A stretch of 38,674 bases of DNA from a virus: positions 1-38,674 of IMG/VR virus record IMGVR_UViG_3300025030_000258; one strand, 5' to 3'. The notes under the pieces are model-generated. The model was not told the DNA's origin, did not search any database, and was given only the letters and a program-made list of their open reading frames with translations. Each line of letters starts with the position of its first letter. The stretch's first letter is position 1. The translations under genes and the position numbers were made by a program. Positions 2,333 to 38,674 of this stretch are shown here, piece after piece.

Positions 2333-2360
2333 TTGTTTTTTGTTTGCTAAGTGATAGATT
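2333..2360 (+). promoter_or_regulatory. Promoter, leaderless type, before 2367 gene
   Basis: TTGTTT (2333-2338), 16-nt spacer, TAGATT (2355-2360), then six bases to the ATG at 2367. No Shine-Dalgarno site is present in the 35-nt gap. Spacing is identical to the promoters before 23776(-), 26778 and 29723. Confidence 0.5.
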
Positions 2361-2366
2361 TATTTT

Positions 2367-3236
2367 ATGGCTATTATAAAAAGTACAGTTCCCAATCCCA
2401 ACGACGGAACAACAAGTTTTGATAAAATTAGATTCTATGAAGCTACAGATTCTAGCGGTACCGGAGCAACATTACTTTCAACCGAAGCAATAGATACTTC
2501 AACGAGATACCAAATAGACCCCGGTACAACCTCATATACTTATACAAGTGGCTCTACGTCTAAGTATTATGCAGGAAAATATTACAATTCATCTACTGCA
2601 GATATCTCCGACTACACAACTTGGGTTTTGGGAGGCAAAGACAGATGGGATACAATGTTTGAAAACGAAATGAGTGATACCTCCAATGCTGTTTGGGCGG
2701 CGGCTACTGTAGCAAGATTTAAGGTGTGGGCTTTAGAAGCACTATTTCCCGACTTATACCGACAAGTTATTGATACTTCTCTAACTTTAGATAACGACGC
2801 TACTCCAACATACACATACAGTGTTCCTTTTGGGATTTTTAATATAGCCGAGGTTGGAGTTGGTGATGTTCAAAATTCTACAAGTACATTTCAAAAACTT
2901 CATCCTGATAACTGGGCTTTTGAGAACGGTCTTTTACACATCTTTGACTTAGGAAGTCTTACAGATACGGCAACAATCAGACTTATTGCTCATAAAAAAT
3001 ATCTTGAAGTAGGAGATGTTCCTGAACAACTGGATAGGGTTGTTATGAATCATCTTAAAATGAATGCTTATTTATTCCTAGCAGAGGATTTCCCAAGATT
3101 CAAAACGTGGTCGCAACTCCAAGAGGGAACTAAAGTATCTTTTGAAAACATGAGAGTTCATGCCAGAGAATTTGAACGCAAGTTTGTAGAGGGAAAGGCC
3201 GAGATTAGGAATACCTTATTCCCATCTCTGATTTAA
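2367..3236 (+). CDS. Head-tail connector/adaptor-like structural protein
   Basis: 289 aa. Residues about 1-75 form a Thr/Ser-rich beta domain (fibronectin-like look: KIRFYEATDSSG, then a TTSYTYTSG turn). Residues 100-289 are more globular and helical, ending in amphipathic helices, which resembles head-completion or connector proteins with an added decoration domain. No catalytic motif. It has its own candidate leaderless promoter and is followed after 1 nt by the Dit-like gene. Alternatives: tail terminator or baseplate component. Confidence 0.5.
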   Translation: MAIIKSTVPNPNDGTTSFDKIRFYEATDSSGTGATLLSTEAIDTSTRYQIDPGTTSYTYTSGSTSKYYAGKYYNSSTADISDYTTWVLGGKDRWDTMFENEMSDTSNAVWAAATVARFKVWALEALFPDLYRQVIDTSLTLDNDATPTYTYSVPFGIFNIAEVGVGDVQNSTSTFQKLHPDNWAFENGLLHIFDLGSLTDTATIRLIAHKKYLEVGDVPEQLDRVVMNHLKMNAYLFLAEDFPRFKTWSQLQEGTKVSFENMRVHAREFERKFVEGKAEIRNTLFPSLI

Positions 3237-3237
3237 T

Positions 3238-4074
3238 ATGGCTGAATTTGCCCGCATAACATACAATTTTAATAGTAGAATTATCTTAAACGATGTTTCA
3301 ACAGATACAACAAGGTATGTTTTATTAAATACTCCAAACATCACCGATACCCTAGTTATAAATACAGAAGATGAAAAACCAGAAGAAGCTGGGATTATAG
3401 ATTACGGCTCAAAGTTTGGTAAAGGTCAGTGGACAGTCCCAATTACTTTGTACGCTTCTTCAAATGAAAATATGGCGGCACTAATCCAGACTCTAAAACA
3501 AGCGTTTAATCCAGACTTACTTGAGGCGGACTCTACTTACGGGGAAACTACAAGCTATCTTGGATATCATCCACTAGATTGGACGGAAACAGTAGGTAGT
3601 ACCTCAAGAGCATTCAGAATTTATGCCAAGTCGCAGGAAACTCCAAAAGTGTCTATGGATAATATGTCGGGAAGTATTAGAAAATCTAATCTTCAATTAA
3701 AAGTTGCAGACCCTAGAAAATATCTTCAATCTGCAACAACCCTATCAGGTGCAGGAACTGCTACTAACGCAGGCACATATACAACTCCGATAGTTATAAC
3801 AATAACTGCCAGTGGAGCTACAAGTACAAGTTTGGCAATTACAAATAGTACGACAAGTAAATCAATATATGTTACTACAGCTCTTGCTAATAATGATAGT
3901 TTGGTAATAGACACTGGTTTGCATTCGTGTAAACTTAATGGAACAGAGAAAAGAAGTTTGTTAAGTGGTTCTACTGAATGGTGGCTTCTAAATTCGGGAA
4001 ATAATACATTAGCATTTACCAACGGAACTAATGCCACAGTATCTTTCTCGTGGAGAAGTGCGTGGCCTTTATAA
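3238..4074 (+). CDS. Distal tail (Dit)-like protein, Sipho_tail family
   Basis: 278 aa. The N-terminal half has the Dit-like beta domain (YGSKFGKGQWTVPITLYA, then the helix ENMAALIQTLKQAF and a LKVADPRKYL end). The C-terminal half has the galectin-like pattern of Sipho_tail proteins: SLVIDTG, then KLNGTEKRSLLSG, then EWWLLNSGNNTLAF, then VSFSWRSAWPL. Dit forms the hexameric hub joining tail tube and baseplate. It lies shortly upstream of the Tal-like gene, the canonical order. This is the strongest evidence for a siphophage-type tail tip. Confidence 0.8.
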   Translation: MAEFARITYNFNSRIILNDVSTDTTRYVLLNTPNITDTLVINTEDEKPEEAGIIDYGSKFGKGQWTVPITLYASSNENMAALIQTLKQAFNPDLLEADSTYGETTSYLGYHPLDWTETVGSTSRAFRIYAKSQETPKVSMDNMSGSIRKSNLQLKVADPRKYLQSATTLSGAGTATNAGTYTTPIVITITASGATSTSLAITNSTTSKSIYVTTALANNDSLVIDTGLHSCKLNGTEKRSLLSGSTEWWLLNSGNNTLAFTNGTNATVSFSWRSAWPL

Positions 4075-4088
4075 AGAGGGTGATTTGA

Positions 4089-4166
4089 ATGAAAGCAATG
4101 ATGAAAGCAAAAAGTATGCCTAGAGCAAAAGTTTCAAAGAGACCTCCTAGAAAAAGAGGTTATTGA
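4089..4166 (+). CDS. Very basic 25-aa microprotein
   Basis: 25 aa, MKAMMKAKSMPRAKVSKR then PPRKRGY: about 40% Lys/Arg. A ribosome site (GAGGGTGAT) lies 6-7 nt upstream, and a near-identical one (GAAGGTGAT) precedes the next gene, so both lie in matching translation cassettes between Dit and Tal. Likely binds nucleic acid or another virion protein. Function unknown. Confidence 0.55.
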   Translation: MKAMMKAKSMPRAKVSKRPPRKRGY

Positions 4167-4183
4167 AAGGAAGGTGATTTAAG

Positions 4184-4387
4184 ATGGAAGGAATGTTAAA
4201 TGATGGTGTAACAAGTCAAGGTGCAGTGTCCAGAACATATGATAAATATGGTAAAAGAATGCACACGTGTACGCCTACAAAAGATATGAGTACAAAACAT
4301 AAAGTAATGATGTCTGGTAAAAGCGAGATGGGCAACACAGTAGATAGTGATACAAGACAAACTACAACAGATAAAGGGGGTCTTTAA
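4184..4387 (+). CDS. Small hypothetical protein between Dit and Tal
   Basis: 67 aa, polar, with many Met, Thr and Lys. No recognised family and no membrane segment. Good ribosome site GGAAGGTGAT upstream of ATG 4184. Its TAA overlaps the ATG of the Tal-like gene (TAATG), which implies translational coupling. Probably an accessory tail-tip or assembly protein. Confidence 0.6.
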   Translation: MEGMLNDGVTSQGAVSRTYDKYGKRMHTCTPTKDMSTKHKVMMSGKSEMGNTVDSDTRQTTTDKGGL

Positions 4388-5894: not shown

Positions 5895-6097
5895 AAAGGA
5901 TATTCGAAACTGGAGCTACTGAAAGCGTTTTTTATATGACTAGATTAAATAATGCAATTTATAAATACTATCTCACAACATTAATCTTTATATTGATTCT
6001 ATTCAAGAGACAAATACCAAAGTGGATGCGAGAGAACGCAAAAAGAATGATTGAGCCGGAATTAGTTATGGGTCAAGTTGAGAAATACGTAAAGTAA
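5888..6097 (+). CDS. Small membrane protein candidate, end of tail arm
   Basis: 69 aa, start overlapping the previous stop (ATGGTAA); a second possible start is at 5936. One strong membrane segment (YYLTTLIFILILF) is followed by a basic/acidic amphipathic tail (RQIPKWMRENAKRMIEP). No clear ribosome site, so coupling is needed. The last 32 nt overlap the convergent gene at 6066. Could be a late membrane protein; function unknown, and a spurious ORF is possible. Confidence 0.45.
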   Translation: MVKRIFETGATESVFYMTRLNNAIYKYYLTTLIFILILFKRQIPKWMRENAKRMIEPELVMGQVEKYVK

Positions 6098-6359
6098 CAA
6101 CACTTATAAGATTAGTTAATGCTTCAAATTCATATTCATACTTTGTTTTACTGCTTCCAACAAGAGTTTTGGCTTTTGCTCTAGCCATTGTATCAGTACC
6201 TTTGTACATATCCTCTCTTTCAGAAATGAATGTTGAGTTAAAAGAGGCTTCTTCAGAAGCTATCAACCCCGCTAACTCTAGCTGCCTTTCGATTATTAAA
6301 AGGATGAGTTCGGATAGCTTTTCTTTATTACTCCAATTTTCCCTAATAAGTTCTATCAT
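6066..6359 (-). CDS. Hypothetical helical protein, last gene of the minus operon
   Basis: 97 aa, almost entirely helical and highly charged (ENWSNKEKLSELILLIIERQLELAGL). No known motif. Its ATG overlaps the TGA of the zinc-ribbon gene upstream (ATGA), and its 3' end runs convergently into the plus-strand tail arm by 32 nt. I see no hairpin terminator at the convergence. Confidence 0.6.
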   Translation of the reverse strand: MIELIRENWSNKEKLSELILLIIERQLELAGLIASEEASFNSTFISEREDMYKGTDTMARAKAKTLVGSSKTKYEYEFEALTNLISVVTLRISQLDP

Positions 6360-6601
6360 TTTACCCTTTTCCCATTCTTAAACTTTGCCACAGAGCCATC
6401 AGGCATTAGTTTCCTTGATTTTATATCGTTTTCCCACTGTTTATCATTATACATAAATCTCTTCTCATTCATTGAATTAATCCTGGGATCTGGATCAACA
6501 CTCCTCGCCCTACAGTCGGGACAATAGTCTTTTAACACCCCGTTATCGTAACGAGTTGTATACTTATTAAATCCTTCCTTTTTACACGTGCTACAAATCA
6601 T
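6356..6601 (-). CDS. Small zinc-ribbon protein
   Basis: 81 aa. CSTCKKEGF at the N-terminus and CPDCRAR about 25 residues later form a four-cysteine zinc ribbon; the C-terminal half is basic (KFKNGKRVK). It is coupled to the glycosyltransferase upstream by an 11-nt overlap and to the next gene by ATGA. Nucleic-acid or protein binding is likely; the partner is unknown. Confidence 0.65.
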   Translation of the reverse strand: MICSTCKKEGFNKYTTRYDNGVLKDYCPDCRARSVDPDPRINSMNEKRFMYNDKQWENDIKSRKLMPDGSVAKFKNGKRVK

Positions 6602-7634
6602 TTAAAAATACCCTCACTTTAGCTGCATCTTGCTCAAAATTAACCTCCTTAAATGTCACAGTAACACTTTTACACATATCGGCGTACTGCAGGTCTGTAA
6701 TTTCTTTTATACAGTCGGCTACATACCTCACGCCTCTTGAGATATCAATACATGTATCCTCATTTAATAATTCTCCTACCAGCTTATCCCTATAGTCATC
6801 TAAATTAACTAACAAAGGCTTTCCTACTGCCAACCAATTATGAATAACATGCCCAAACCCATCCCCATGAGGTTTATTGTGATATCCGAACTTAGCCCTT
6901 TGCATTTCTTTCGCAATTAATTTTGTAGTTCCAAGTGTTCCATCGGGACAGGATGCCCCATAAGATTTGAATGAATACTCTGGCAGGAGTAACTTAAATT
7001 CTTCCCACTTTAATGGCTGGGGAAGGCAATTAACGAAACTAAATATGTTTTTTTCAAGCGTGTAAGCTGGTTTAAACACTCCCAAGTCAAACTCTTGCCT
7101 ATAAAATACTACGTTATTTGAATCAGGAACACTAAAAGGTTTAACCGAAGCCATTATATTTCTAACTTTATTAAAGGGTATTAAAGAATGCCATCCTATA
7201 TTTCCAATCTGATATACGAGTTTTGTCCTCAATCCGTAGTCTTTTATCAATTTGGTATAGGCGTCAATATGAGCTGGAATTGAGGCAATTATGATGTCAA
7301 AATCCATTGATAGAAACTTTTCTAACGTAACTGCTTTATGAGTTATATTATTGGAATAGTCCTTAATATAATAAACACCATTCTCAATGTCAGAAACGTC
7401 ATTTAATGGTTGCGTACCATCAGGAGGCAAATAACCCTCTCTGATTCCAAGATATTGCTCTATTGTTTCGTGGTTATTGTTGTATGGTTCGGCTATCTTC
7501 CAATATCCATTATCAAACCATTCCTTCCCAATAGGTCTATAAAGTTGATGCCCAAGCCTATTCTCTAACAGATAGTGTAACGAAGCGTAAAGACCTGAGT
7601 GATGAAAATCACAAAATATCTTCATTTTATTCAT
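6591..7634 (-). CDS. GT-B-like glycosyltransferase
   Basis: 347 aa. It starts MKIFCDFHHSGLYASLHYLL, a Rossmann-like opening, and carries a donor-half signature KPHGDGFGHVIHNWLAVGKP followed by LLVNLDDY. That matches the C-terminal sugar-nucleotide half of GT-B enzymes, with a GDGFGH loop in place of the usual EX7E. Last enzyme of the glycan cassette. Its ATG overlaps the phosphatase stop (ATGA). Sugar and acceptor cannot be read from sequence. Confidence 0.7.
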   Translation of the reverse strand: MNKMKIFCDFHHSGLYASLHYLLENRLGHQLYRPIGKEWFDNGYWKIAEPYNNNHETIEQYLGIREGYLPPDGTQPLNDVSDIENGVYYIKDYSNNITHKAVTLEKFLSMDFDIIIASIPAHIDAYTKLIKDYGLRTKLVYQIGNIGWHSLIPFNKVRNIMASVKPFSVPDSNNVVFYRQEFDLGVFKPAYTLEKNIFSFVNCLPQPLKWEEFKLLLPEYSFKSYGASCPDGTLGTTKLIAKEMQRAKFGYHNKPHGDGFGHVIHNWLAVGKPLLVNLDDYRDKLVGELLNEDTCIDISRGVRYVADCIKEITDLQYADMCKSVTVTFKEVNFEQDAAKVRVFLNDL

Positions 7635-7993
7635 ATAGAACTCCTATGTTCTTTGATATTTAATATTTCCTGATTACTCCTAACCCAATTCCACACCTTA
7701 GATATTAAAATAGGATTAGAGGGATTGCCATAAGTATCGGGCCCAACTTCGCATATTAAAACCTTGGTTATAAACTCTAAAGGAATTTCCTCTCTGTAAT
7801 GATTTTCCATAACAATAATATTATCAGCCCAAGTAAAAAGCATTTTTAATGTATTTTCATCATTCATTCTCCCAAATTCATGTTTCCCAATTCCACAAGT
7901 AAGGACATCCACTGGCCAGTAATGAAGTTTCAAGACATTTGCTAGTGAAACACTTCTAACTAATCCGGCTCTACAAACAGTTAATATCTTCAT
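7631..7993 (-). CDS. Low-molecular-weight protein tyrosine phosphatase-like
   Basis: 120 aa. The phosphate-binding loop is near the N-terminus: VCRAGLVRS, with C7-X5-R13-S14. ADNIIVME matches the family strand, and GPDTYGNPSNP supplies the general-acid loop with D86 in a DxYG setting. These enzymes hydrolyse phosphotyrosine through a cysteinyl-phosphate. In bacteria LMW-PTPs are linked to capsule and exopolysaccharide export by dephosphorylating BY-kinases. It lies inside a glycosyltransferase cassette with ATGA overlaps on both sides, so a role in surface glycan control is a reasonable inference. About 30 aa shorter than typical LMW-PTPs. Confidence 0.75.
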   Translation of the reverse strand: MKILTVCRAGLVRSVSLANVLKLHYWPVDVLTCGIGKHEFGRMNDENTLKMLFTWADNIIVMENHYREEIPLEFITKVLICEVGPDTYGNPSNPILISKVWNWVRSNQEILNIKEHRSSI

Positions 7994-8517
7994 ATAAATA
8001 TTACACCCGTCCCCGTTCCCTCATCAAAATGGAATTCCTCATAATTATACTTATGTTTAAGTTCTTTCCACACCTTATAAACTTCTACTGCGGGATTATC
8101 TTCTAACCACACGTCATGCAATGCAATTATTCCACCTTTTTTTACTAGACTACTGTAGTAATTAAAATCGTCCCACACTGACTTTTCCATATGATCTCCA
8201 TCTATAAATAAAAAATCTATATAATCAAACTTATGTTCTCTTAGAACATCTTGAGTAAGAGTTTGAACAATTTCAGATTGCGAGTAACCAATCGTTTTGC
8301 AACTACATCCAGTAAAATCTGCATATCCACTAATATCTATTCCTATTATGTAAGCTTCGGGAAATACTTTTCTCCATACGTTAATAGAACCTCCACGATC
8401 TACTCCTATCTCAAGTATTACTTTTGGCTTTATGGAAATCAATATTTCTAAAAGTCTTTTTAGTTCTCTTTTTCCTTGCGATGCGAATGACTTCTCTACT
8501 ATTTCGTCTACATTCAT
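7990..8517 (-). CDS. Class I SAM-dependent methyltransferase (Methyltransf_24-like)
   Basis: 175 aa from ATG 8517. SAM motif I is VILEIGVDRGGSINVW; the post-II strand is YIIGIDISG; DYIDFLFIDGDH is the motif seen in sugar and cephalosporin-hydroxylase-like methyltransferases, followed by KKGGIIALHDVW. I chose 8517 because it overlaps the upstream TGA as ATGA and has GGAGAG about 8 nt upstream; a GTG at 8547 would extend it by 10 residues without a ribosome site. Likely O-methylates a sugar made by the neighbouring transferases. Confidence 0.8.
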   Translation of the reverse strand: MNVDEIVEKSFASQGKRELKRLLEILISIKPKVILEIGVDRGGSINVWRKVFPEAYIIGIDISGYADFTGCSCKTIGYSQSEIVQTLTQDVLREHKFDYIDFLFIDGDHMEKSVWDDFNYYSSLVKKGGIIALHDVWLEDNPAVEVYKVWKELKHKYNYEEFHFDEGTGTGVIFI

Positions 8518-9230
8518 AAAAGTTGCTCTCCTAGATTTCTCAAACACATATTTACCATATTCTTATACTTAGCACTTACCTCTATGTTAATACTAGAACC
8601 TTTTAGATATTTGATAAATTCATCTCTTTTATAAATATTTTCTACTTGATTAATACTTGCTAAGTATATGTTATGAGTGAGACCATTCATATGATTATAG
8701 CCCTCATACTTTATGATATCCAAATCATCTAAAAATCTGGCTTCGCCAATTTCTTGTATAAATTTTCCAAAATGGTCATATTCAGGTGGTTTGGCCGAAA
8801 AATCTCTACTTGAACTATCTATAGCTTTTCTACTAACAAGAAGAAAAGCAGGGTGTAGTCTATCCCCTTCCTCAAATCCAATAACATTAGAAAATCTTCG
8901 TTCTTCCCATATATCTGTTAATTCCTGACTAGACTTTATAAAAAAGTCTTGCTCCATAAATAATACCCACGAAGAATCCGATCTATCTATACCACGATTA
9001 ACCGCTACACTACGCCAATCCTGTCCCATAATAAAATAAGAAAATTCAAATATTATTCCATCATAATTCATATGACTCATTATTTCTTGTGTAAAATCTA
9101 ACGCATTATTCATATCTGTAAAGACTATAATTACCTTACCAAAGAATCCCCTATACAGCCTTATAAAAAGTCTAAACGGCGGATAATCAATATGCTTTGG
9201 CCATACACACACTAGATCTGGATTTCTCAT
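8514..9230 (-). CDS. GT-A-like glycosyltransferase
   Basis: 238 aa. The segment SVAVNRGIDRSDSSWVLFMEQDFFI has the layout of GT-A enzymes: an R/NRG helix followed by a strand ending in an acidic pair (EQD) in the DxD position. Later, LHPAFLLVSRKAID fits a GT2-like acceptor strand. Similar in plan to the neighbour at 9227, so the two may act in sequence. ATGA overlaps on both sides. The exact family is uncertain. Confidence 0.6.
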   Translation of the reverse strand: MRNPDLVCVWPKHIDYPPFRLFIRLYRGFFGKVIIVFTDMNNALDFTQEIMSHMNYDGIIFEFSYFIMGQDWRSVAVNRGIDRSDSSWVLFMEQDFFIKSSQELTDIWEERRFSNVIGFEEGDRLHPAFLLVSRKAIDSSSRDFSAKPPEYDHFGKFIQEIGEARFLDDLDIIKYEGYNHMNGLTHNIYLASINQVENIYKRDEFIKYLKGSSINIEVSAKYKNMVNMCLRNLGEQLL

Positions 9231-10204
9231 ATAAGTCCCATATAACCATCAACCAAATAACTGATATTTCTTACAGACAAGCCATTAACTCTGATAATAC
9301 GATCCATTATGTGTGCTCGATTTTCCGAATATCCCCCTAAAAGATTGTTTTTAAACATATCATACGAAAGTTTCCACCAAGCCAATCTTCTTTCTAACTC
9401 TAGCTTTTCATCGGTTTCTACCACATTAATTTGTGAAGTCCCATCCAATAAATTCTGTAAAGAACTGGAAGAACCTGTGTGTGTCCAAGGAGCGTGGCCA
9501 TCCCAAAGACCATGCCCTCTCTCTCTATGAGATACATCGTACGTAGAACCGTGATACTGCGGAATCTCCTTTATTCTTAATCCTAAATCCCGTAACTGCA
9601 AAGATAACCAAACCATAGTATCTCCATATCCGGTCTCTTTCATCGTATAATTTAAAGGTTTAATATACTCTCCCGCCTTAAATTCTTTAGAATCGAAGTT
9701 TAAATCAGTTTTTAATAAGTCGGAACATTTAACAAATAAACAATTAGGCCAAAAATTTGGACCGACGTCTCTAGCTTCTCTATAATTTAATCCCCATCTA
9801 GTTAAAGCCATATCACAAATTTCCGTAGCACAAGACATTCTAGGACTTCCAGCAAGGTCATAATCGCCTCTTTCTATTCCTCTAAAGTATTTATCTACAA
9901 CATCACGATTAAAAACAAAACAATCATCCTCTATCAACATTATTAAATCCTCTGTAGAAGCCTCAAGAAGCTGTTTTAAAGCCTCTCCATGCGTAATCAT
10001 TCTGTCGTAGATAGCAACTTCAACAGCACCAACATTTCTAAACTGTTCTCGTACATCATTCATTACATCTGCTGGAAGATTGGAATTTATAATCACATAC
10101 AAATTATCAATAGAGTCTTTGAAACACTTCTCGTATTGCCTTATCCAAAGTCTCACAAGAACCGGGTCTCCTATAGTTGGTAATAAAACTGCTCTTGATC
10201 TCAT
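9227..10204 (-). CDS. GT-A (family 2-like) glycosyltransferase
   Basis: 325 aa. N-terminal AVLLPTIGDPVLVRLWI is a Rossmann-like opening; STEDLIMLIEDDCFVFNRD supplies the metal-binding acidic motif (EDD in the DxD position); GDYDLAGSPRMSC and ETGYGDTMVWLSLQL follow in the order expected for a GT2-like catalytic domain. Predicted to transfer a sugar from a nucleotide donor with a divalent metal. Member of the ATGA-coupled cassette. Confidence 0.7.
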   Translation of the reverse strand: MRSRAVLLPTIGDPVLVRLWIRQYEKCFKDSIDNLYVIINSNLPADVMNDVREQFRNVGAVEVAIYDRMITHGEALKQLLEASTEDLIMLIEDDCFVFNRDVVDKYFRGIERGDYDLAGSPRMSCATEICDMALTRWGLNYREARDVGPNFWPNCLFVKCSDLLKTDLNFDSKEFKAGEYIKPLNYTMKETGYGDTMVWLSLQLRDLGLRIKEIPQYHGSTYDVSHRERGHGLWDGHAPWTHTGSSSSLQNLLDGTSQINVVETDEKLELERRLAWWKLSYDMFKNNLLGGYSENRAHIMDRIIRVNGLSVRNISYLVDGYMGLI

Positions 10205-12996: not shown

Positions 12997-12998
12997 AG

Positions 12999-13247
12999 TT
13001 AAATCTCCGTAGTTTCTAAAATATCTAACTTATCTCTCATATCTTCTTGAAGTTTCTTTAAAGACAAAGGAAAATCTCTTTCTACGACTTCGGGATTTTC
13101 AGACGGTTTCCACCCCTCATCAACAATTACAAAGCCTTTAGATAATAATTCATACACCCTATCTTCGGGTACTCTAACTAAAACTCCTTTGGGATTTTTC
13201 ATAAACGGGTCGTTAGGATTTTCTTTTTTTATATATTCAAAAAGCAT
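12999..13247 (-). CDS. Hypothetical protein
   Basis: 82 aa, charged, no family recognised. Contains GVLVRVPEDRVYELLSKGFV, a short alpha/beta unit that could be a small binding domain, then a coiled-coil-like end (SLKKLQEDMRDKLDILE). It overlaps the upstream gene by 11 nt and is 2 nt from the glycosyltransferase downstream, so it is co-transcribed with the cassette. Confidence 0.6.
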   Translation of the reverse strand: MLFEYIKKENPNDPFMKNPKGVLVRVPEDRVYELLSKGFVIVDEGWKPSENPEVVERDFPLSLKKLQEDMRDKLDILETTEI

Positions 13248-26743: not shown

Positions 26744-26771
26744 TTGATATTTATTTATAATATTGTACTTT
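26744..26771 (+). promoter_or_regulatory. Promoter, leaderless type, before 26778 gene
   Basis: TTGATA (26744-26749), 16-nt spacer, TACTTT (26766-26771), six bases to ATG 26778. Shares the context AACTTGATATTT with the promoter at 36681. Confidence 0.6.
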
Positions 26772-26777
26772 ATAAGT

Positions 26778-28493: not shown

Positions 28494-28496
28494 ACT

Positions 28497-29687: not shown

Positions 29688-29688
29688 T

Positions 29689-29716
29689 TTGAATTTATTT
29701 GTTTTTGTGAGAATAT
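29689..29716 (+). promoter_or_regulatory. Promoter candidate before portal gene
   Basis: TTGAAT (29689-29694), 16-nt spacer, GAATAT (29711-29716), six bases to ATG 29723. Spacing matches the leaderless set, but the -10 is poor. Confidence 0.35.
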
Positions 29717-29722
29717 GAAAAT

Positions 29723-31504
29723 ATGGCAGATTTTATACAACAACTAAAAGAAATGTTACCCGGTACAAAAGAACATACTGAATTAATTTCCAGTCAAAGG
29801 TCAGCAATTGAAGTTATGCAGTTGTGGGAATCAGGAGAAAGTGTTTATTCTCAATTAAAAACCAGACTTGAATTTAACAGAGATTATTATCTTGGAAAAG
29901 AAAGCAGACAATTTAATTCAAGAACTACAGAAGGTGAGCTTCGTATAATAACTAATGTTGGTGCTACCGTTCTTGATTTAATGGTATATTTGCTTTCAAA
30001 TAACGCCCCCTATATTCAAGCAACACCAAGAACTAATGACAAAACGTCTCAGATTGAAGCTAGTGTTGCAGAAGATTTGGGAAATTCAGCTCTTAGAATG
30101 GCAGGATTTCACAAAACATTTAGAAATACTTGCTGGCTTATGGTTCTTGGGGGTTTTGCGTGGTGGTATCCATTTTGGAATAACGAAAAAGAGTTTGGAA
30201 GAAAGAAGAATAAGTTTGATTTTTCTACACTAAATCCATTCACAACCAGAGTTTTTTATCAGGATACAGATTATGAGAAAATTCCTACTTTCATAACTAC
30301 TAAAAGAATGACTCCAGAATCTGTATTTGACTTATATGATGGTTTTGTCGCAGGACCTGATTCACAAAATCCCTTCATTCCTGAAACTATTAAAGGAGAG
30401 GGAATTAGTGATAATAAAGTTACGGTGTTTAGAAAATATGACTCAAAGAATACAATTACTGTTATTGATAGCAGAATAGCAAAAACAGAAGAACATGGCT
30501 TGGATTTCACGCCGCTTATTCAAATAAATAATAAATACGTGGTGAATGATCCCCACGGGCATGATGATATCTTTAGAATGCTTCCCGTAGCTCAAGAGTT
30601 AAACATGCTAATTTCAGCAGCTTCTGAAATTGCAAGAGATTTAGCATGGCCACCTTTATTAGAATATAACGGGGCTTTAGGAGGTAAGAAAGTTCCTAAA
30701 ATGCGTGGGGTTAAAATTCCTGTAAGACGAACAGATAAGGGAGAGTCTTTAGAATATATGGTGAACCCGGCTCAAATGGAGCCTCTTTTAAAACAAATTC
30801 AGTTATTATTAGACCTTTTCCATTTTGTTTCATTGATGCCAAAGGCTGCTGCTGGTGTGTTTGATTCTTCGGTCACATCAGGATTTCAAGCAAGAATTGC
30901 AATGCAACCAGCTACACTTTCAACCGAGAATAAGAGAATAGACCTAGATGCGGCAATAGAAAGACTTGTAAAGATTGCATTATATATGATTGAAAAAAAT
31001 GACCCTTCAGCTCTTGAGGTTGATGAAAACACAAAATTAACAGAACTTTATAATCTTGAATTTAAGGTAGTTTGGCCAGATAACTTACCAATTGATATAG
31101 CAAGAGAAATTCAGAATCTTATATTGGGCATTCAAAATTCATTAACTTCAGTTACTCAAGCTGTTGATAAATACAATGTAATGATGGGTATGGGTTCTAG
31201 TGAGGAAACTTTAAATTATCTAAAACAAGAATCCAAGGATTCAAGCGTAGCTCCAGATCGTGCTCTTAAAGTAGCTCAAGTTCAACAGGCATTATCACAA
31301 ATTGACCAGTCTATGAGTGAAATTAGAGATAAACTTGGGGTTAGTATGACTCCTGATAATATTTTACCCGGAGGAAATGAAACTAATGCAGAAAGAGCTA
31401 TGACCTCTCCCGACCAGCAAAACCAACCAGTAGATACTTCAAGAGAAGCAGTTCCGCCTGAAAGCATGGGCGGACAGATTCTTCCGCCTGGAGGTAATCA
31501 ATAA
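29723..31504 (+). CDS. Portal protein
   Basis: 593 aa. RLEFNRDYYLGKESRQFNSR, then RIITNVGATVLDLMVYLLSN, is the N-terminal clip/wing of phage portals; AQELNMLISAASEIARDLAW and SGFQARIAMQPATLSTENKR fit the stem and crown helices. C-terminal Gln/Pro/Gly-rich tail. Forms the dodecameric DNA channel at the vertex. Position between terminase and scaffold supports the call. The stop is shared with the next start (TAATG). Confidence 0.8.
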   Translation: MADFIQQLKEMLPGTKEHTELISSQRSAIEVMQLWESGESVYSQLKTRLEFNRDYYLGKESRQFNSRTTEGELRIITNVGATVLDLMVYLLSNNAPYIQATPRTNDKTSQIEASVAEDLGNSALRMAGFHKTFRNTCWLMVLGGFAWWYPFWNNEKEFGRKKNKFDFSTLNPFTTRVFYQDTDYEKIPTFITTKRMTPESVFDLYDGFVAGPDSQNPFIPETIKGEGISDNKVTVFRKYDSKNTITVIDSRIAKTEEHGLDFTPLIQINNKYVVNDPHGHDDIFRMLPVAQELNMLISAASEIARDLAWPPLLEYNGALGGKKVPKMRGVKIPVRRTDKGESLEYMVNPAQMEPLLKQIQLLLDLFHFVSLMPKAAAGVFDSSVTSGFQARIAMQPATLSTENKRIDLDAAIERLVKIALYMIEKNDPSALEVDENTKLTELYNLEFKVVWPDNLPIDIAREIQNLILGIQNSLTSVTQAVDKYNVMMGMGSSEETLNYLKQESKDSSVAPDRALKVAQVQQALSQIDQSMSEIRDKLGVSMTPDNILPGGNETNAERAMTSPDQQNQPVDTSREAVPPESMGGQILPPGGNQ

Positions 31505-33294
31505 TGGCATACGCAACAAGACGCAGCTCAGGAGGCTGGACAACAATAGCACCAAGAACTGACTATGCTAATGTAGTTGCAAATTATGCCGCTGTTATTA
31601 GACAAGCTCAGATAGAACAAAAGAATACCGAGATGGAGTCTAAAGTATTTGCATATAAGAACGGTCAATTAAGCTATGAGGATTTAAAAAAGTATCTAGC
31701 AGATTCTCTTATTCAAGAATTATCCGGCTCTCAAAAAGAACTTGGTATAAGACAGCTTCAAGTTGAGCTTGATAATTACGAGGACAATAAAAATAAAGAT
31801 ATTGAAAGAGCAAAAATGGAAGCACAGTTTGCTTCTAATGGGATTTCCGCATCCGAAAGAGTTCAAATTGAAGAATCTTTATTAAGATTTTACAAGGATG
31901 GAACTCCTGAATATACTAATCAACTTAGTACAATAGCTACAGCTAAAGAATTACAGAGAGTAGATCAAAAGAATGCAAAGATTGCTCAAATTGAATCCAG
32001 ACTTTCAGAGAGCGGATTAACCAATAGGGAAAAGATTTCTCTTTATGAACAAGCAAAAGGTATGACGGAAAAAGGAACTGCTGAATATTCTAATTTACAA
32101 ACAAAGATTAACGACATCAAAGTTTTACAAAAGGAAGAAGAAAATAAAAAGAAATTAAATCAAGTTCAAACAGCCCTAATTGATAAATATAGTTCGGGCG
32201 GACTAACTAATGATGAAAAACTTTTAATGAATAAAGAACTTCAAAAGTATGTCGAGAAAGATTCTCAAGATTTTGTTAATCTTAAAGAAAATGAAGCAGC
32301 TTTACTTGGTGCCATAGCAGATGAAAAGAAAGTTGCAGGAAACAAAGGTGTAGAAGATTCAAGAAGAACTGCGGCGATAGAATTTAATAAATCTAATGTA
32401 GAACTTGAAGCTATAGAGGGAAGATTTTCAATAGATGTGAATATGTCAGAAGAAGAATATATGGCGGCTAAGGAACAAATTCTAAATAATCAAAATAAAA
32501 TAATAACCAATCTCGGTAAAGCCGCATCAGAGGAAGAAACAGCTCAAATGCAATTTGAAATACAAAAATTTTTAGAATTAAAAAATGCAGTTCAAACCGG
32601 TCAAGCGGCGGTTGTAAAAGACAAAGAAGGTAAGAAAGCAATTAGATTACTAAAAGAATTGGGTGGCTATATTCAGACAGAAAAGGTAGCAAGTCTTGAC
32701 CAAATAGAAGGTAACATTGCAGCGAGCTACGAAGAAAAACCTGTTGTTACTATTGTGGAAAATGGTGTTGATAAGAAATATGTTGTAAATACAGATGGTA
32801 AATTTGAATTATTATCTGGTCAAGTTAAATCCAGAGATGTTACCGGAAAAGATGTAGCAGTGTATAAAGCCACGGGACAAATCTCTACTTCTGTGGGCAT
32901 TCAAAAGAAAGTAGAAGTGCCCGAATTTGGTTTTACTCCTGTTCCAACATCTAACTTTACCCCAGTGCCATCATCTACAACTGTAACCTCTGGTGGAAGT
33001 AAAGTTTCTACCCCAAAACCAACTACTTCTTCAAACAAAAAGAGTACCTCTAATATTACCAGCTCTACAAAACCAAACGCTGTAGCTTCCACAATATCTG
33101 CAATAACTAACATTACAAAAGCAATTAGAAGTAGCGGACCAGGAAATGCTTATGGGGCAACTACTAAAACGGGAACTATTAAACCAGGCAATATTCGGGG
33201 AACACTTGATTTTGGTATAACTGAAAGACTTGGAATAGGTAAGAAAGTAACCAGTGCTATAAACTGGGCTAGAAGTTTATTCAAGAGGAAATAA
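31504..33294 (+). CDS. Long coiled-coil virion protein
   Basis: 596 aa. Residues about 30-400 are near-continuous coiled coil (EQKNTEMESKVFAYKNGQLS, then EKKVAGNKGVEDSRRTAAIE) with repeat-like blocks; the C-terminal 150 residues are Ser/Thr/Pro-rich (SSTTVTSGGSKVSTPKPTTS). Could be an ejection, scaffold or tape-measure-like protein. No membrane segment or enzymatic motif. Its length would only suit a short tape measure. Confidence 0.55.
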   Translation: MAYATRRSSGGWTTIAPRTDYANVVANYAAVIRQAQIEQKNTEMESKVFAYKNGQLSYEDLKKYLADSLIQELSGSQKELGIRQLQVELDNYEDNKNKDIERAKMEAQFASNGISASERVQIEESLLRFYKDGTPEYTNQLSTIATAKELQRVDQKNAKIAQIESRLSESGLTNREKISLYEQAKGMTEKGTAEYSNLQTKINDIKVLQKEEENKKKLNQVQTALIDKYSSGGLTNDEKLLMNKELQKYVEKDSQDFVNLKENEAALLGAIADEKKVAGNKGVEDSRRTAAIEFNKSNVELEAIEGRFSIDVNMSEEEYMAAKEQILNNQNKIITNLGKAASEEETAQMQFEIQKFLELKNAVQTGQAAVVKDKEGKKAIRLLKELGGYIQTEKVASLDQIEGNIAASYEEKPVVTIVENGVDKKYVVNTDGKFELLSGQVKSRDVTGKDVAVYKATGQISTSVGIQKKVEVPEFGFTPVPTSNFTPVPSSTTVTSGGSKVSTPKPTTSSNKKSTSNITSSTKPNAVASTISAITNITKAIRSSGPGNAYGATTKTGTIKPGNIRGTLDFGITERLGIGKKVTSAINWARSLFKRK

Positions 33295-36200
33295 TGGGCA
33301 TACTGCAAGATCTTCAAAGTAAGATAACGCAAAGTAAACAAGCGTTTTCTAATATAGTTGGTAGTGCTATTAAAGCAGGTTCTTCTATCTATCAAGGATT
33401 GACGAACGCTCCTTTATCTCCAACCTCTTTAAACAAAAGATATGATGTAACAGGGAAAGTATCTAGTGATGTTAAAAGACAGGTTAGTGAAACTATTAAT
33501 ATAGGTAAGCCAGAAAATCGTAAATCTGCTGGAATATTACTCACCCCATTATTACAAACTACTGCCGCTATGAGAAAATTACCAAAACCAATTCAATCTT
33601 TTGTAGATAATCCAAAACTATTTGGCACGGCACCTCAGCTTCCTAAAAGATTTGAGCATCTTCAAGCACAAGACGCTCTAGTTAGAAGCGGTCTTAATTT
33701 TATATCTAATCTAGCAAAAGGAGCGGTTTTCGGTGACCCTAAAAGAACAAAGCAGGTATTAGATTCTTATTCAAAAGTTTTATCTGGTAAGCCAATTACA
33801 AGTTCAGAAAGAAAAGAGTTAGAGAAATTTGCTAATGAGCAACAAATTAATTTTATCTTACAAGCGTCTACAGGTGCGATTGCTGGAAAACTAAAAGTTC
33901 CTAAAGGAGTACCTTTAATACAAGAAGAAGTTACGCTATATCACGGCGGTACTACCGAGAGTTTTTCTAAAGCAGTACCGGGAGGCACAAGAACTAAATT
34001 GAAAAACGTATATGCTACTGAAAGTAAACAATTGGCAGAAATATATGCTGAAAACCGAGGAGGTAAAGTAATAAAAGAAGTTTTTAGTTCGGAAGATTTT
34101 TTTGACCCATCTTCTAAAGAGGCTGTCGGAGAATTGATTAGTTTATTTAACAGTAAAAAAGCAACACTTAGTTCAGAAACCATTATATTTATGAAAGCTG
34201 TGGAAAATGAATTTTCTAGTGGAACACCCACGAGATTATTAGATAGACGGCTCGCTTATTTTGAAAGTATACCAGAAATAAATAAACTATTAAAAGATGC
34301 GGGATATAAAGGTATAAAACTTCCCTATACGGCAGACGTATCGGACATAGCTGGTAACGTTCCAAGTGAATTTGTGTTGTTTTCAGACTCTATACAAAAA
34401 GGTGGAAGTAATATACCGACATTACCTACCACAGAAATATCAGATATCTTAACTCCCGAAGGTCAGGTTAAAATAAAACCTCAAGAGTTAAATGTAAATA
34501 AACTTGACCTTACTTTAGGAGAGAAATTAGATATTCAACAAATTGGAGCAAAAGAAGTTAGAGAAACTTTAAAAGATTCTGAGATTTTAAAAATAGCTAA
34601 AGGTGCTGGTTTAGATACAAAAACTTATTCTTTAGACCAAACTGCGGAAGTGATAGCAGAGCAACTAAACACTCGAAATAGGATAGTGGAATTAGAGAAG
34701 ATTAGAATAAACCTACAAGCTAGTGGTGGAAGTACAGAGGAATTAATAAAGGTAACAAAAGAGATGGTTAATCTCTTGGGTGCAACATCCTCTCAAGGAA
34801 CTGATGTAGCACGACAGCTTAGAGCAAGACAAATTGTAGCTAATGAACTGGATACTCCTATGCAAAGAGTATTTAAGCTTTTAAGAGAAGCTGGGGTTAA
34901 TCCTGATGAATATATTAAAAGGTCAACGAGTGTTGATTTCAACGATCCCAAACAAGTTCAGGATTTTTTTAGAGAGCTTGTACCATCAAAGTGGTGGGAT
35001 TGGACAGATAAATATAGATATGCAAATATGTTGAGTTCTCCAACTACACACACAACAAACATTGGATCAAATGTAACTGGAACAGCTTTAGTAACCCCTA
35101 TTGAAAAAACAATAACTGGGGGATTGGATTGGTTGGCTTCCACAAGTGCTTCTTTAATTGGTAAAAATAGACCAAGACAGACTTTTGCAGGTGAGGGATT
35201 AGAATATGCTAAAGGTTACTTTCCTGAGCTAAAAAATGCTGCTCATAAATTTGCTGATGTTATGTCAGGAACAGTTACATCAAATGCTCAAGGATTAGAT
35301 GCAATGCAACTAACAACATCCACAGAAAAACTAACGTTAGGAAAATTGGAACTTCCAATAAGAGCAAGGGCGTTAGAAAATGTTTGGGATTTTCCATTAA
35401 AAGCTTTAAAAGGTGTGGATGAGTTCTTTAGAGTTCTTAGTAAAGGCGGATTAAAAAAATCATATGAATATCGTATTAGTAAGGGAGTTCCTATTTCTAA
35501 TTTAGAAACTAAAATGGATGATGAGGCAATAAAGAGGTTGTTTAACGCTCCTCTTGGAAAGGCAGATGAGGGAAACATATTAAATGCAATGAGTGAGGTT
35601 GGAAGATTGGTAAATAATTTAAGAAACAACAAAAACCCAATTGTAAGTAGTTTGGCTAAAATATATGCCCCATTTGTAAAAGTAGCTACAAACCTGGCTA
35701 AACAAAGTATTGAGTATTCTCCTCTTGGTTTTACTACGATATGGAAAAATCCTAATAAGACAGAGCAAATTTCTAAAGCTATTATGGGTTCTAGTGTGAC
35801 TTTGGGAGCCTCAATACTTGCATCAAGTGGTAGATTAAGAGGAGCACCAAAATCTAACCAGAAAGAAGAACAAGCATATCTTAGTAAGGGCATTCCTCCT
35901 TACTCGGTAAAAATTGGAAATAAGTGGATTTCTTATCAAAAGATGCACCCTCTAATATCAGCTAATTTTGCTTTAGTTTCAGCCACACACGATGTGTTAA
36001 ACAAAAAGAGTACAGACGATGAAGCCCAGAGATTACTAGATTTAGCAAGTAAATACTTAATGTTCTTTGCCGACCAGTCTTTGAACAAATCAATTGGAGA
36101 ATTTGTTAAACTATCTTCTGGCGACCCTAATGCAATTGAAAGATTTACCGCAACCGGATTCAGACAATTTATACCTTTTAGTTCATTCTTTGCGTGGTTA

Positions 36201-36530
36201 GAAAGAGCTGTAGATCCTGTTCAAAGAAAGCCAAGTGCGGATGCTGGTCCAATTGAAAAGACATTACAAGAAATTATGAAAACACTTCCCGGTCTTGCAG
36301 AGAATGTTCCGGTAAGAGAAGATTTATCAGGAGAGCCGATTCAAAATACAGATAGAATATTAAATATGTTAAGTCCTTTTGGAAAGATAACTACAGAAAC
36401 CCAAAATCCCGAAGCAGATTACTATCTTGAGAGTTTGGATATTAAAAGAGAAAATCGTGTTCAGAATGAACTTGATGATAAAGCTATAACAAAGCTACAA
36501 GAAAAATTAAAGAAAAAGAAACCCCGCTAA
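33294..36530 (+). CDS. Large internal virion protein with ADP-ribosyltransferase-like domain
   Basis: 1078 aa. Residues about 213-370 have the polyvalent ART plan: TLYHGGTTESFSK (YHG at 216-218), then NVYATESKQLAEIYAENRGG, then KDAGYKGIKLPYT and PSEFVLFSDSIQ at the end. Residues about 390-700 contain the phage polyvalent-protein segment YRYANMLSSPTTHTTNIGSN. The C-terminus ends in PFGKITTETQNPEADYYLES. Probably ejected with DNA and able to modify a host protein. The ADP-ribosyl transfer is predicted, not shown. The glutamate of the ARTT loop is not obvious. Confidence 0.65.
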   Translation: MGILQDLQSKITQSKQAFSNIVGSAIKAGSSIYQGLTNAPLSPTSLNKRYDVTGKVSSDVKRQVSETINIGKPENRKSAGILLTPLLQTTAAMRKLPKPIQSFVDNPKLFGTAPQLPKRFEHLQAQDALVRSGLNFISNLAKGAVFGDPKRTKQVLDSYSKVLSGKPITSSERKELEKFANEQQINFILQASTGAIAGKLKVPKGVPLIQEEVTLYHGGTTESFSKAVPGGTRTKLKNVYATESKQLAEIYAENRGGKVIKEVFSSEDFFDPSSKEAVGELISLFNSKKATLSSETIIFMKAVENEFSSGTPTRLLDRRLAYFESIPEINKLLKDAGYKGIKLPYTADVSDIAGNVPSEFVLFSDSIQKGGSNIPTLPTTEISDILTPEGQVKIKPQELNVNKLDLTLGEKLDIQQIGAKEVRETLKDSEILKIAKGAGLDTKTYSLDQTAEVIAEQLNTRNRIVELEKIRINLQASGGSTEELIKVTKEMVNLLGATSSQGTDVARQLRARQIVANELDTPMQRVFKLLREAGVNPDEYIKRSTSVDFNDPKQVQDFFRELVPSKWWDWTDKYRYANMLSSPTTHTTNIGSNVTGTALVTPIEKTITGGLDWLASTSASLIGKNRPRQTFAGEGLEYAKGYFPELKNAAHKFADVMSGTVTSNAQGLDAMQLTTSTEKLTLGKLELPIRARALENVWDFPLKALKGVDEFFRVLSKGGLKKSYEYRISKGVPISNLETKMDDEAIKRLFNAPLGKADEGNILNAMSEVGRLVNNLRNNKNPIVSSLAKIYAPFVKVATNLAKQSIEYSPLGFTTIWKNPNKTEQISKAIMGSSVTLGASILASSGRLRGAPKSNQKEEQAYLSKGIPPYSVKIGNKWISYQKMHPLISANFALVSATHDVLNKKSTDDEAQRLLDLASKYLMFFADQSLNKSIGEFVKLSSGDPNAIERFTATGFRQFIPFSSFFAWLERAVDPVQRKPSADAGPIEKTLQEIMKTLPGLAENVPVREDLSGEPIQNTDRILNMLSPFGKITTETQNPEADYYLESLDIKRENRVQNELDDKAITKLQEKLKKKKPR

Positions 36531-36643
36531 AATTCTCTATATACACAACCTATGTTGGTTATTACCAATACAATTACACCAAATAAAAACACAAAAAAAA
36601 TTTGAACTATTATTGCCCAAACTCCTTCTAAAATTGTTTTCAT
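36527..36643 (-). CDS. 38-aa hydrophobic membrane protein, antisense inside the late arm
   Basis: MKTILEGVWAIIVQIFFVFL then FGVIVLVITNIGCVYREF: one long or two short membrane spans. TATAAT is exactly six bases upstream of the ATG, with no ribosome site, the leaderless pattern. It is the only minus-strand gene inside the 14-kb plus arm and overlaps the convergent stop of the 33294 gene. Could act in superinfection exclusion or lysis control; no homology claim. Confidence 0.5.
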   Translation of the reverse strand: MKTILEGVWAIIVQIFFVFLFGVIVLVITNIGCVYREF

Positions 36644-36649
36644 ACATAT

Positions 36650-36655
36650 ATTATA
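36650..36655 (-). promoter_or_regulatory. -10 box for the 36643 gene
   Basis: TATAAT on the minus strand six bases before ATG 36643. A TTGACA sits too near (about 8 nt) to be its -35, so the upstream half is uncertain. Confidence 0.4.
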
Positions 36656-36680
36656 TACCATACTGTCAATACCTCTAAAC

Positions 36681-36708
36681 TTGATATTTGTTTTTAGTGT
36701 GTTATTAA
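36681..36708 (+). promoter_or_regulatory. Scaffold/coat promoter
   Basis: TTGATA (36681-36686), 16-nt spacer, TATTAA (36703-36708). The context AACTTGATATTT equals that at 26744. Leaves a leader of about 30 nt with AAGGAGGTG before ATG 36745, so this one is leadered. Confidence 0.55.
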
Positions 36709-36744
36709 TGAATTAGAAAGTTCTTAAGGAGGTGTATTTATAAA

Positions 36745-37428
36745 ATGACGCAAGTCGAAACGTTAAAGTCTGATGAAAACTTAACCGCCGTCAAAGACGG
36801 GCAGGAAAGTGCAAAAGGATCAACCGAACCGACTGAGGATACACTATTAGATGGAGCCAAGAACTGGCAACATGCCTTGCAAATTAAGCAGGAGAGGTTA
36901 AAAGAAGAACGAGAAGCACGTGAATTAGCAGAAGCTCGATTGAAAGAAATTGAGGATGCTGAAAAACAAAGGACATTGGATAATTTATCCGAGTCTGATA
37001 AGTGGAAAGTAATTGCCAAAGAGGAAGAAAAGAAACGAGGAGCTTTAGAATTAAAGCAAGTTGTTAAAGATACTCTTTACGATAAAAAACTACCACAGCC
37101 AATCGTAGACCTTTTAACAGAAACTCCGTGGGCGATACCACAGGTAGCCAGAGAATTGGGTGATAATTTCACATGGGACGAAGCTATAGCTTCGGTCAAA
37201 CGCCATTTACCGTCTTATGTTGAATCTTTAGTCGTCGGAGAAATCCCTTCAGAAGAACCTCTAAAGAAGGTTGATTCTGAAAGGTCAGTTGATACCACTA
37301 TTATTAAAGATCATATCTACACTCGTGCAGAGGTGGAAGCTCTTGGTAAAGATCCTGTTGCTTACGAGAAGCACAGAGATGCAATACTAAGGCAAATGGC
37401 TAAATATGGTGGAAGATTGCCCGAATAG
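36745..37428 (+). CDS. Scaffolding protein
   Basis: 227 aa, acidic and highly helical. Residues about 45-115 are a coiled coil (ALQIKQERLKEEREARELAE). It lies directly before the coat protein with a strong ribosome site AAGGAGG, as in HK97/P22-like operons. Scaffold directs capsid shell assembly and is then lost. The C-terminal region YEKHRDAILRQMAKYGGRLPE could be the coat-binding tail. No protease is seen in the window. Confidence 0.7.
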   Translation: MTQVETLKSDENLTAVKDGQESAKGSTEPTEDTLLDGAKNWQHALQIKQERLKEEREARELAEARLKEIEDAEKQRTLDNLSESDKWKVIAKEEEKKRGALELKQVVKDTLYDKKLPQPIVDLLTETPWAIPQVARELGDNFTWDEAIASVKRHLPSYVESLVVGEIPSEEPLKKVDSERSVDTTIIKDHIYTRAEVEALGKDPVAYEKHRDAILRQMAKYGGRLPE

Positions 37429-37474
37429 AATTACCCTTCTCATTAATTATTTAATTAAGAGGGGGTGTATTTAA

Positions 37475-38317
37475 ATGGCTAATATAACAGTTACAACGGC
37501 TGATAACTTTAGACCTGAAATATGGTCGCCAGAAGTCAAAAGGGCTGTAGAGTCAAACTTGACTATGGCTAAGCTAGTTAATAGGAATTACGATGGCGAA
37601 ATCCAAAAGAAAGGTGATACTGTTCACATAGTTGATATCTCTAACCTATCAGTTGGTGATAAATCAGCTAGTACGGATGTTACCTACGAAGCAATTACAG
37701 AAGATAAAACTTCTTTAACGATTGACAAGCATAAATATGCGGCTTTCAAGCTTGAGGACATTGTGGCAGTTCAATCCAATACCAATCTTTTGACAGAGTA
37801 TTCTAACAAAGTTGGTTACGCTCTTGCAAAACAAATAGATACTGATTTACTGGCACTATACGTAGCGTTAGGACAGTCAGCAGGTGCAGATAATACAGAT
37901 ATTACTGCAGCGACTTTCTTGTCAGCAATACAATTCTTAGATTTAGCAGATGCTCCGGAAACAGACAGATCTGCGGTATTTACTGCTGGACAAAAGAAAG
38001 CTTTCTTGGGTGTTGATCAATTCGTAAGATATGATGCAACAGGTATCGGCGGACAGCAAAACCCGATAATTAGAGGACAATTTGGTGAACTTTATGGTGT
38101 GAGAGTATTCTTCACCACAAATGTAACCACAGCTGGTTCTCCTGCAGGCGATCATAACCTTATGTTCCACAAAGAAGCGTTCGCACTTGCAATGCAAAAG
38201 GACATAAGAATTCAAAGTCAGTACGATATTGATGCTTTGGCAGAGAAAGTTGTGGGCGACGTACTATACGGGATCAAGGAGTATCGTGATACTTTTGGCG
38301 TAGTAGTCAAAACTTAA
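37475..38317 (+). CDS. Major capsid (coat) protein
   Basis: 280 aa. N-terminus ITVTTADNFRPEIWSPEVKR, then MAKLVNRNYDGEIQKKGDTVH, is the usual start of P22/HK97-fold coat proteins; YAAFKLEDIVAVQSNTNLLT, then SAIQFLDLADAPETDRSAVF, then NPIIRGQFGELYGVRVFFTT follow the coat-family order. Strong ribosome site GAGGGGGTG. Forms the icosahedral shell. Followed by a strong terminator, as expected for the most abundant protein. Confidence 0.88.
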   Translation: MANITVTTADNFRPEIWSPEVKRAVESNLTMAKLVNRNYDGEIQKKGDTVHIVDISNLSVGDKSASTDVTYEAITEDKTSLTIDKHKYAAFKLEDIVAVQSNTNLLTEYSNKVGYALAKQIDTDLLALYVALGQSAGADNTDITAATFLSAIQFLDLADAPETDRSAVFTAGQKKAFLGVDQFVRYDATGIGGQQNPIIRGQFGELYGVRVFFTTNVTTAGSPAGDHNLMFHKEAFALAMQKDIRIQSQYDIDALAEKVVGDVLYGIKEYRDTFGVVVKT

Positions 38318-38336
38318 CATTGTTTTAATGTTCATT

Positions 38337-38359
38337 GAGCCAGGGACGCCTGGCTCTTT
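38337..38359 (+). terminator. Rho-independent terminator after the coat gene
   Basis: GAGCCAGG (38337-38344) and CCTGGCTC (38349-38356) pair perfectly over 8 bp around GACG; TTT follows. Ends the structural operon before the glycosyltransferase copy. Confidence 0.8.
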
Positions 38360-38360
38360 G

Positions 38361-38369
38361 TGTTAAAAT
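38361..38369 (+). promoter_or_regulatory. Extended -10 before the glycosyltransferase copy
   Basis: TGTTAAAAT (TG-n-TAAAAT) six bases before ATG 38376. No -35 match, as tolerated by extended -10 promoters. It lies just after the terminator, so the gene is restarted as a separate unit. Leaderless spacing. Confidence 0.45.
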
Positions 38370-38375
38370 ATGATT

Positions 38376-38674
38376 ATGGAAGTAAACTTCCTTACCACAA
38401 CAAATAAATCAAATGGTTACGGAATGACACGTGAATACTTTAAGAAGTTTCTACCCAAACACGGAATTGAATTAAACTCGGAATACACAGGGCAGGATAT
38501 TACATTCATTTTACACATTCCTCCCGCAATTCAACACGCAAAAGGTAAAATTAAGGTTTTATATACAATGATTGAGGGAGATACTGTGCCTGATTCTTGG
38601 CATCCGTTTCTTAAAATGGCAGATTATATTATCGTTCCTACTACGTTTGTTCAACAAGCTTTCGACAGGGCGGG
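38376..38674 (+). CDS. Glycosyltransferase copy 2, N-terminal part only
   Basis: About 99 codons, cut by the window end. Nearly identical to the 11-964 gene: about 27 base differences over about 306 nt, mostly third positions, with five amino-acid changes (K/E, Y/H, K/E, E/D, I/H). The pattern of differences shows both copies are under protein-level constraint. It follows the coat gene and its terminator. Confidence 0.8.
   Translation, partial: MEVNFLTTTNKSNGYGMTREYFKKFLPKHGIELNSEYTGQDITFILHIPPAIQHAKGKIKVLYTMIEGDTVPDSWHPFLKMADYIIVPTTFVQQAFDRA

Follow-up and report, generated by a model that had tools for sequence, protein, structure and literature searches.

The window analysed here, meaning the whole stretch of 38,674 bases (36.5% G+C), is the virus record IMGVR_UViG_3300025030_000258, and the elements in question are promoter-like sites that lie directly against start codons, with a hexamer of the -10 type ending six bases before the ATG and, in most cases, a hexamer of the -35 type 16-18 nt further upstream. 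These sites are concentrated at gene starts and recur in front of orthologous genes of related phages. The window sites and the open reading frames (ORFs) that they precede are the following:

2333-2369 (+): TTGTTT-N16-TAGATT-N6-ATG; gene 2367-3236, 289 amino acids, a tail-region protein of unknown family
19717-19754 (-): TTGACT-N17-TAGAAT-N6-ATG; ORF 19719-19570(-), 49 amino acids; overlooked by the sequence-only reading
21190-21228 (-): TTGACA-N17-TAATGT-N7-ATG; HNH endonuclease gene 21192-20779(-); also overlooked
23250-23287 (-): TTGCAA-N17-GATAAT-N6-ATG; M23 peptidase gene 23252-22335(-); also overlooked
23774-23810 (-): TTGATA-N16-TAGAAT-N6-ATG; gene 23776-23546(-), 76 amino acids, leading a cassette that includes the M23 peptidase gene
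24068-24104 (-): TTTACT-N16-TATAAT-N6-ATG; ORF 24070-23867(-), 67 amino acids, RHH-like
24422-24459 (+): GTGACA-N17-TATCGT-N6-ATG; gene 24457-24819, 120 amino acids, upstream of TerS (24803) and TerL (25305)
26744-26780 (+): TTGATA-N16-TACTTT-N6-ATG; gene 26778-28493, 571 amino acids, behind TerL
29689-29725 (+): TTGAAT-N16-GAATAT-N6-ATG, weak; portal gene 29723-31504
36641-36679 (-): TTTAGA-N18-TATAAT-N6-ATG; ORF 36643-36527(-), 38 amino acids with one hydrophobic segment
38364-38378 (+): TAAAAT-N6-ATG, doubtful, without a -35; glycosyltransferase gene

A sequence-only reading of this DNA had drawn attention to the sites at 2333-2369, 26744-26780, 29689-29725, 24457 and 38376 on the plus strand and at 23810-23774, 24070 and 36643 on the minus strand. 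All of them are present, none has a Shine-Dalgarno (SD) sequence, and the spacing at 29689-29725 is indeed kept with a weak -10 (TTGAAT-16-GAATAT-N6-ATG). Those at 24070, 24457, 36643 and 38376 had been described as a -10, six bases and an ATG only; that part stands, but the first three also carry unremarked -35-like hexamers at 16-18 nt, and only 38376 has none. Weak lone sites such as this last one may be chance matches. It lies directly behind a strong terminator-like hairpin (38337-38356, GAGCCAGG-GACG-CCTGGCTC) found immediately 5' of the glycosyltransferase gene start, and the L031 ortholog of that gene (6560) likewise has a hairpin, of other sequence, immediately ahead of the ATG.

Regarding the smaller products, the start at 24457 is preferred over 24439, as it seems to fit a Phd-like N-terminus (MRTVSIRDFQRN, judged by eye), and gene 24457-24819 has no Pfam or PHROG match. 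The RHH likeness of ORF 24070-23867(-) is weak (RHH_9, E 0.035, below the cut-off), and ORF 36643-36527(-), whose neighbours are encoded on the other strand, may specify a small membrane protein that gene callers overlooked.

Enrichment at one distance and conservation in relatives

Every ATG of the window was scored for a pair of TTGACA and TATAAT hexamers separated by 16-18 nt and ending d bases upstream (A2 and T6 of the -10 being fixed), and gene-start ATGs, taken from mechanical calls of the longest non-overlapping ORFs, were compared with all other ATGs for d = 0-20. At d = 6 the pair was found before 11 gene-start ATGs against 0.77 expected from the non-gene ATGs (Fisher p 1.8e-8), while the other distances stayed near expectation, the highest being 3 against 0.7 at d = 4, and those of 8-10 nt at or below it. 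The count of 11 includes two matches, 19662(-) and 5888, which are probably not real starts; both were dropped as sites, the former scoring yet lying within the 49-residue ORF and the latter being weak. When the upstream regions of the same genes were shuffled, the mean at d = 6 was 1.4 and the maximum 5, and a count of 11 was reached in none of 500 trials. The comparison with shuffled sequence had been proposed by the sequence-only reading, and it was also run for the bare pattern TTG-N19-TANNNT-N6-ATG, which occurs four times in the window against 0.8 expected, a number reached in one of 100 shuffles. Three of the four fall on long-ORF starts (2333, 26744 and 23810(-)), and the fourth, 14500(+), heads no gene.

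Under a strict threshold of 8.5 and with large ORFs only, the window alone is not significant (1 against 0.3 expected), since short ORFs or second ATGs are what several of its best sites precede. The window signal emerges once such starts are admitted and the threshold is moderate, a possible forking path in the analysis. This concern is offset by the peak at a single distance and by the relatives, three of which (G001, G009 and L007) reach significance under the strict threshold.

Such relatives were found among IMG/VR phages by alignment searches with the portal protein and the terminase large subunit (TerL), which are 42-49% and 50-68% identical, respectively, to those of the window; they comprise G001 (41,971 bases), G005 (42,274 bases), G009 (39,586 bases) and several fragments. 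The test in related phages, also suggested by the earlier reading, showed the sequence TTGAC placed 33-40 nt before gene ATGs in excess in G001 (9 against 0.87 expected, p 3e-7), G009 (7 against 0.87, p 3e-5) and L007 (2 against 0.07), with no such excess in lambda, P23-45 or MMP17. Altogether, ten phages have 25 gene starts with a -10 at 5-10 nt from the ATG, where about 3.4 would be expected (p 5e-13), and the counts are highest at 6 nt (11 against 0.6, p 3e-9). Five control phages (the AT-rich phi11 and HTVC010P, together with lambda, P23-45 and MMP17) together yielded a single start in the 5-10 nt range, with about 1.6 to be expected, and so no excess. Thermus and Meiothermus phages, meant as positive controls, yielded no signal under this scoring, which requires a -35. 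The sites of the relatives often have a perfect TTGACA and hexamers nearer consensus than those of the window; the best score at least 9, and the pair TTGACA/TATAAT at 16-18 nt is clear in G001, G009, L007 and L008, the window sites being weaker. Representative sites, including those at orthologs of window genes, are:

G001:1264 (-): TTGACA-17-TAATAT-N6-ATG
G009:29105: TTGACA-18-TATATT-N6-ATG
L007:11231: TTGACA-18-AATAAT-N6-ATG
G001 19758: TTGACT-18-AAGATT-N6-ATG; ortholog of gene 2367
G009 3194: TTGACA-18-CAAGAT-N6-ATG; ortholog of gene 2367
L015 4362: TTGAAA-16-TATTAT-N6-ATG; gene at the same place as 26778 (26.5% identity over part)

The promoter is kept at orthologous starts among phages with about 27-52% protein identity. 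In the window, G001 and G009 the spacing at gene 2367 is N6 without exception, and the -10 differs among them (TAGATT, AAGATT and CAAGAT, respectively), and for gene 26778 both N16 and N6 are kept in the window and L015. The portal promoter is found in the window, G001, G009, L007 and L008, at d = 6, 9, 10, 9 and 10, respectively, and in the four relatives it reads TTGACA-17/18-AATAAT or CAAAAT-N9/10-ATG. Moreover, the G009 orthologs of window genes 2367 and 3238 have ORFs that reach further upstream, with homology beginning exactly at the ATGs 3194 and 5948 next to the promoters (at 3194, query residue 1 corresponds to subject residue 13), and these start codons are therefore supported independently of the promoter scan.

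Two G001 sites, L009:1264-1299 (-) and L010:15917-15955 (-), carry the palindrome TGACACA-T-TGTGTCA over the -35, degenerate in the second; one of them precedes a gene with weak HTH matches, and the palindrome is a possible autoregulated operator.

Genome context and host evidence

The two ends of the window (5-305 and 38370-38672) share some 300 bases of almost the same sequence (95% identity at the protein level, with micro-variation), and the 21.7-kb record G002 crosses the joint between them, being otherwise nearly identical over the shared part. The genome is therefore of about 38.4 kb and circular or terminally redundant. Its structural genes include:

25305-26729: TerL; TerS starts at 24803
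29723-31504 (+): portal of SPP1 type (Pfam PF05133 and phrog_64)
33294-36530: internal-virion-like protein
37475-38317: capsid-like protein

Neither the window nor the relatives scanned have tRNA genes, and a scan with Rfam gave nothing at gathering thresholds. A long cassette with glycosyltransferase-like genes (6066-13247, -) is partly common to G001 and L015. The HNH endonuclease gene belongs to a stretch with few ORFs (20100-21340), beside a calcineurin-like phosphoesterase gene; an intron or a mobile insertion is a possible explanation. At 20018-20077 a perfect DnaA box (TTATCCACA) occurs three times with a spacing of exactly 20 bp, an array that is possibly a replication origin and that was not found in relatives. 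About 300 bp away, at 20363-20500 (+), lies the sole perfect sigma70 promoter of the scanned part 19,000-38,674 (TTGACA-16-TATAAT, 12/12), followed by a gene-free stretch of about 104 nt with a fold of -40.8 kcal/mol and a terminator end (GCCCCTA...TAGGGGC-TTTTT). The stretch may encode a small RNA, for which Rfam gave no match.

As for the host, a search of a collection of genome contigs gave no relative of the portal or TerL. Best matches to isolates were of 22-28% identity for TerL (Thermus, Meiothermus, Synechococcus and Tunturiibacter phages) and about 30% for the major capsid protein (mycobacteriophages and others), so that no host is assignable; the portal had no match in the phages collection.

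Probable leaderless transcripts and rival explanations

The interpretation is based on the motif with its spacing, an enrichment at gene starts that depends on position, the absence of SD sequences and the conservation at orthologous starts. As the spacing equals one distance from a -10 to its transcription start, these sites, very probably promoters of the sigma70/sigmaA type set against start codons, are most naturally read as giving leaderless or near-leaderless mRNAs. The claim of leaderless mRNAs made by the sequence-only reading is supported by a conserved spacing far above chance, with the qualification that near-leaderless messages are equally covered. The -10 would be placed in such a way that transcription is expected to begin at the A of the start codon or 1-4 nt before it, and host RNA polymerase with a host sigma factor would make mRNAs that are leaderless or have a leader too short for an SD; where the -10 is 8-10 nt from the ATG, the leader would be of about 1-4 nt. 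Host ribosomes would then initiate on a 5'-terminal AUG: if the mRNAs are leaderless, the host must translate them. The sites would mainly head transcription units, the later genes of which often appear to use an ordinary SD, and SD-like sites are indeed present at TerS, TerL and 31504.

Several observations weigh against this reading. The -10 of the portal promoter lies at 9-10 nt in the relatives, suggesting leaders of about 2-4 nt, and this promoter was not found in G005, G006, G007 or L006. In G005 the excess is not significant (2 against 0.5 expected, p 0.12) and the portal site is missing as well, so that not every member of the clade has the habit. Weak hexamers (TTGTTT, TACTTT, GAATAT) are seen at several sites of the window. 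Finally, SD sequences occur in none of the 27 best such starts and in 78 of 264 other starts, a contrast that is partly forced by geometry because the -10 takes up most of the room available for an SD.

The alternative that survives best, a possible one with less in its favour, is that the promoters are real and yield leaders of some 2-10 nt, or leadered and leaderless messages side by side, the mRNAs being near-leaderless. About half of the sites in relatives, mostly at the portal gene, do have the -10 at 7-10 nt from the ATG, and at gene 26778 an alternative -10 (TATAAT, 26756-26761) is found 10 nt further upstream, which would give a leader of about 10 nt. Against it stands the window, with its peak at exactly 6 nt and distances of 8-10 nt at or below expectation. 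The exact six-base spacing originally proposed does not always hold, since the relatives also use 7-10 nt.

It is rather improbable that the sites form a promoter class of the phage's own, recognised with a phage factor and marking one temporal class of genes. The sequence TAACTTG is common to three window sites at the -35, and TTGACAAAAAA to several sites of G009 and L007; the hexamers, however, are those of the sigma70 consensus, and more closely so in the relatives. The AACTTG(A/T)T context noted earlier does exist at three sites, yet the window holds 11 copies of the octamer AACTTGWT where 5.9 are expected, eight of them at other places, and it was rejected as a site-specific element; the phage promoter family proposed earlier is therefore not supported. 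No sigma factor or RNA polymerase was found among the proteins scanned, a scan that covered part of the proteins. The genes served are of mixed function (the portal, a tail-region gene, a lysis cassette, small DNA-binding-like proteins and the HNH endonuclease), so that the marking of particular gene groups proposed earlier is not supported either; the arrangement looks instead like a default for first genes in some of these phages.

Bacteroidetes and archaea have many genes without an SD, and another promoter type could be imagined, either the -33/-7 promoter of Bacteroidetes (TTTG, TANNTTTG) or the TATA box of archaea combined with leaderless mRNA. Both are very unlikely: the best sites fit the bacterial TTGACA and TATAAT at 16-18 nt, downstream genes have SDs such as AGGAGG, and nothing like a TATA box is present at these sites about 25 nt upstream, where one is expected. 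Just as hard to believe is chance in an AT-rich genome full of TANNNT-N6-ATG strings, which could draw on the modest enrichment of the exact bare pattern and on matches at no gene start (33549(-) and 2209(-), with spacers of 17 or 18 nt, and 14534(+)), but which is rejected for the set by the confinement to gene starts and to one distance, its survival of upstream shuffling, the AT-rich controls and the conservation in relatives.

Returning to promoters set against start codons, a wider proposal is more doubtful: leaderless initiation might be the rule for first genes in most units of this lineage, including structural operons such as that of the portal, because the host, perhaps from a phylum without studied transcription, would favour leaderless mRNAs. 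If so, the spacing from promoter to ATG would be a readable signature of the initiation mode of the host. Leaderless promoters become readable with statistical confidence from one metagenomic phage genome, gene starts are corrected (24457, 24070 and 26778, together with 3194 and 5948 of G009), short ORFs that gene callers may miss are brought to light (19719 and 36643), and a clue is gained to the translation biology of the host.

Comparison with known leaderless systems

Leaderless genes with a TANNNT element are found in Deinococcus-Thermus and Actinobacteria, and in phage lambda the cI transcript made from PRM, a promoter adjoining the ATG, is a leaderless mRNA. The sites described here resemble the latter in having a promoter against the ATG of a phage gene, but lambda does so at one gene of an otherwise leadered phage and shows no genome-wide excess in our scan; its leaderless initiation is mentioned by Zheng et al. 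2011 (PMC3160421). The same work established that a TANNNT with its first T about 12 bp before the start codon, in the absence of an SD, is a signature of bacterial leaderless genes, and reads it as a -10 box. The window sites share these features, a -10-like hexamer being enriched about 6-7 nt upstream with no SD, and they are conserved at orthologous starts; the difference is that those genes belong to cellular genomes, and these sites to a virus lineage in which many have a clear -35 of the TTGACA type.

In Deinococcus-Thermus it was shown by experiment that a -10 adjoining the ORF drives leaderless expression, that a fixed spacing is needed and that an added -35 raises expression (Zhong et al. 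2025, PMC12340547). The likeness lies in a -10 a few bp before the ORF, the fixed spacing and the enhancing -35, while their evidence comes from reporters and RNA-seq in Deinococcus, where about 30% of the ORFs carry the motif, and ours from sequence. Among phages, most middle and late mRNAs of the Thermus phage phiYS40 are leaderless, and host translation is reportedly shifted towards such messages, with IF2 up and IF3 down (review, PMC3594737); this is again a phage with leaderless mRNAs, differing in its known thermophilic host. P23-45 was first suspected as the precedent, but the review names phiYS40 instead. The authors of the work on AR9 also stated that phage transcripts are often leaderless (PMC5312081). 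The mechanism is thus already known, and what is new here is its conserved and position-exact use in an uncultivated phage lineage.

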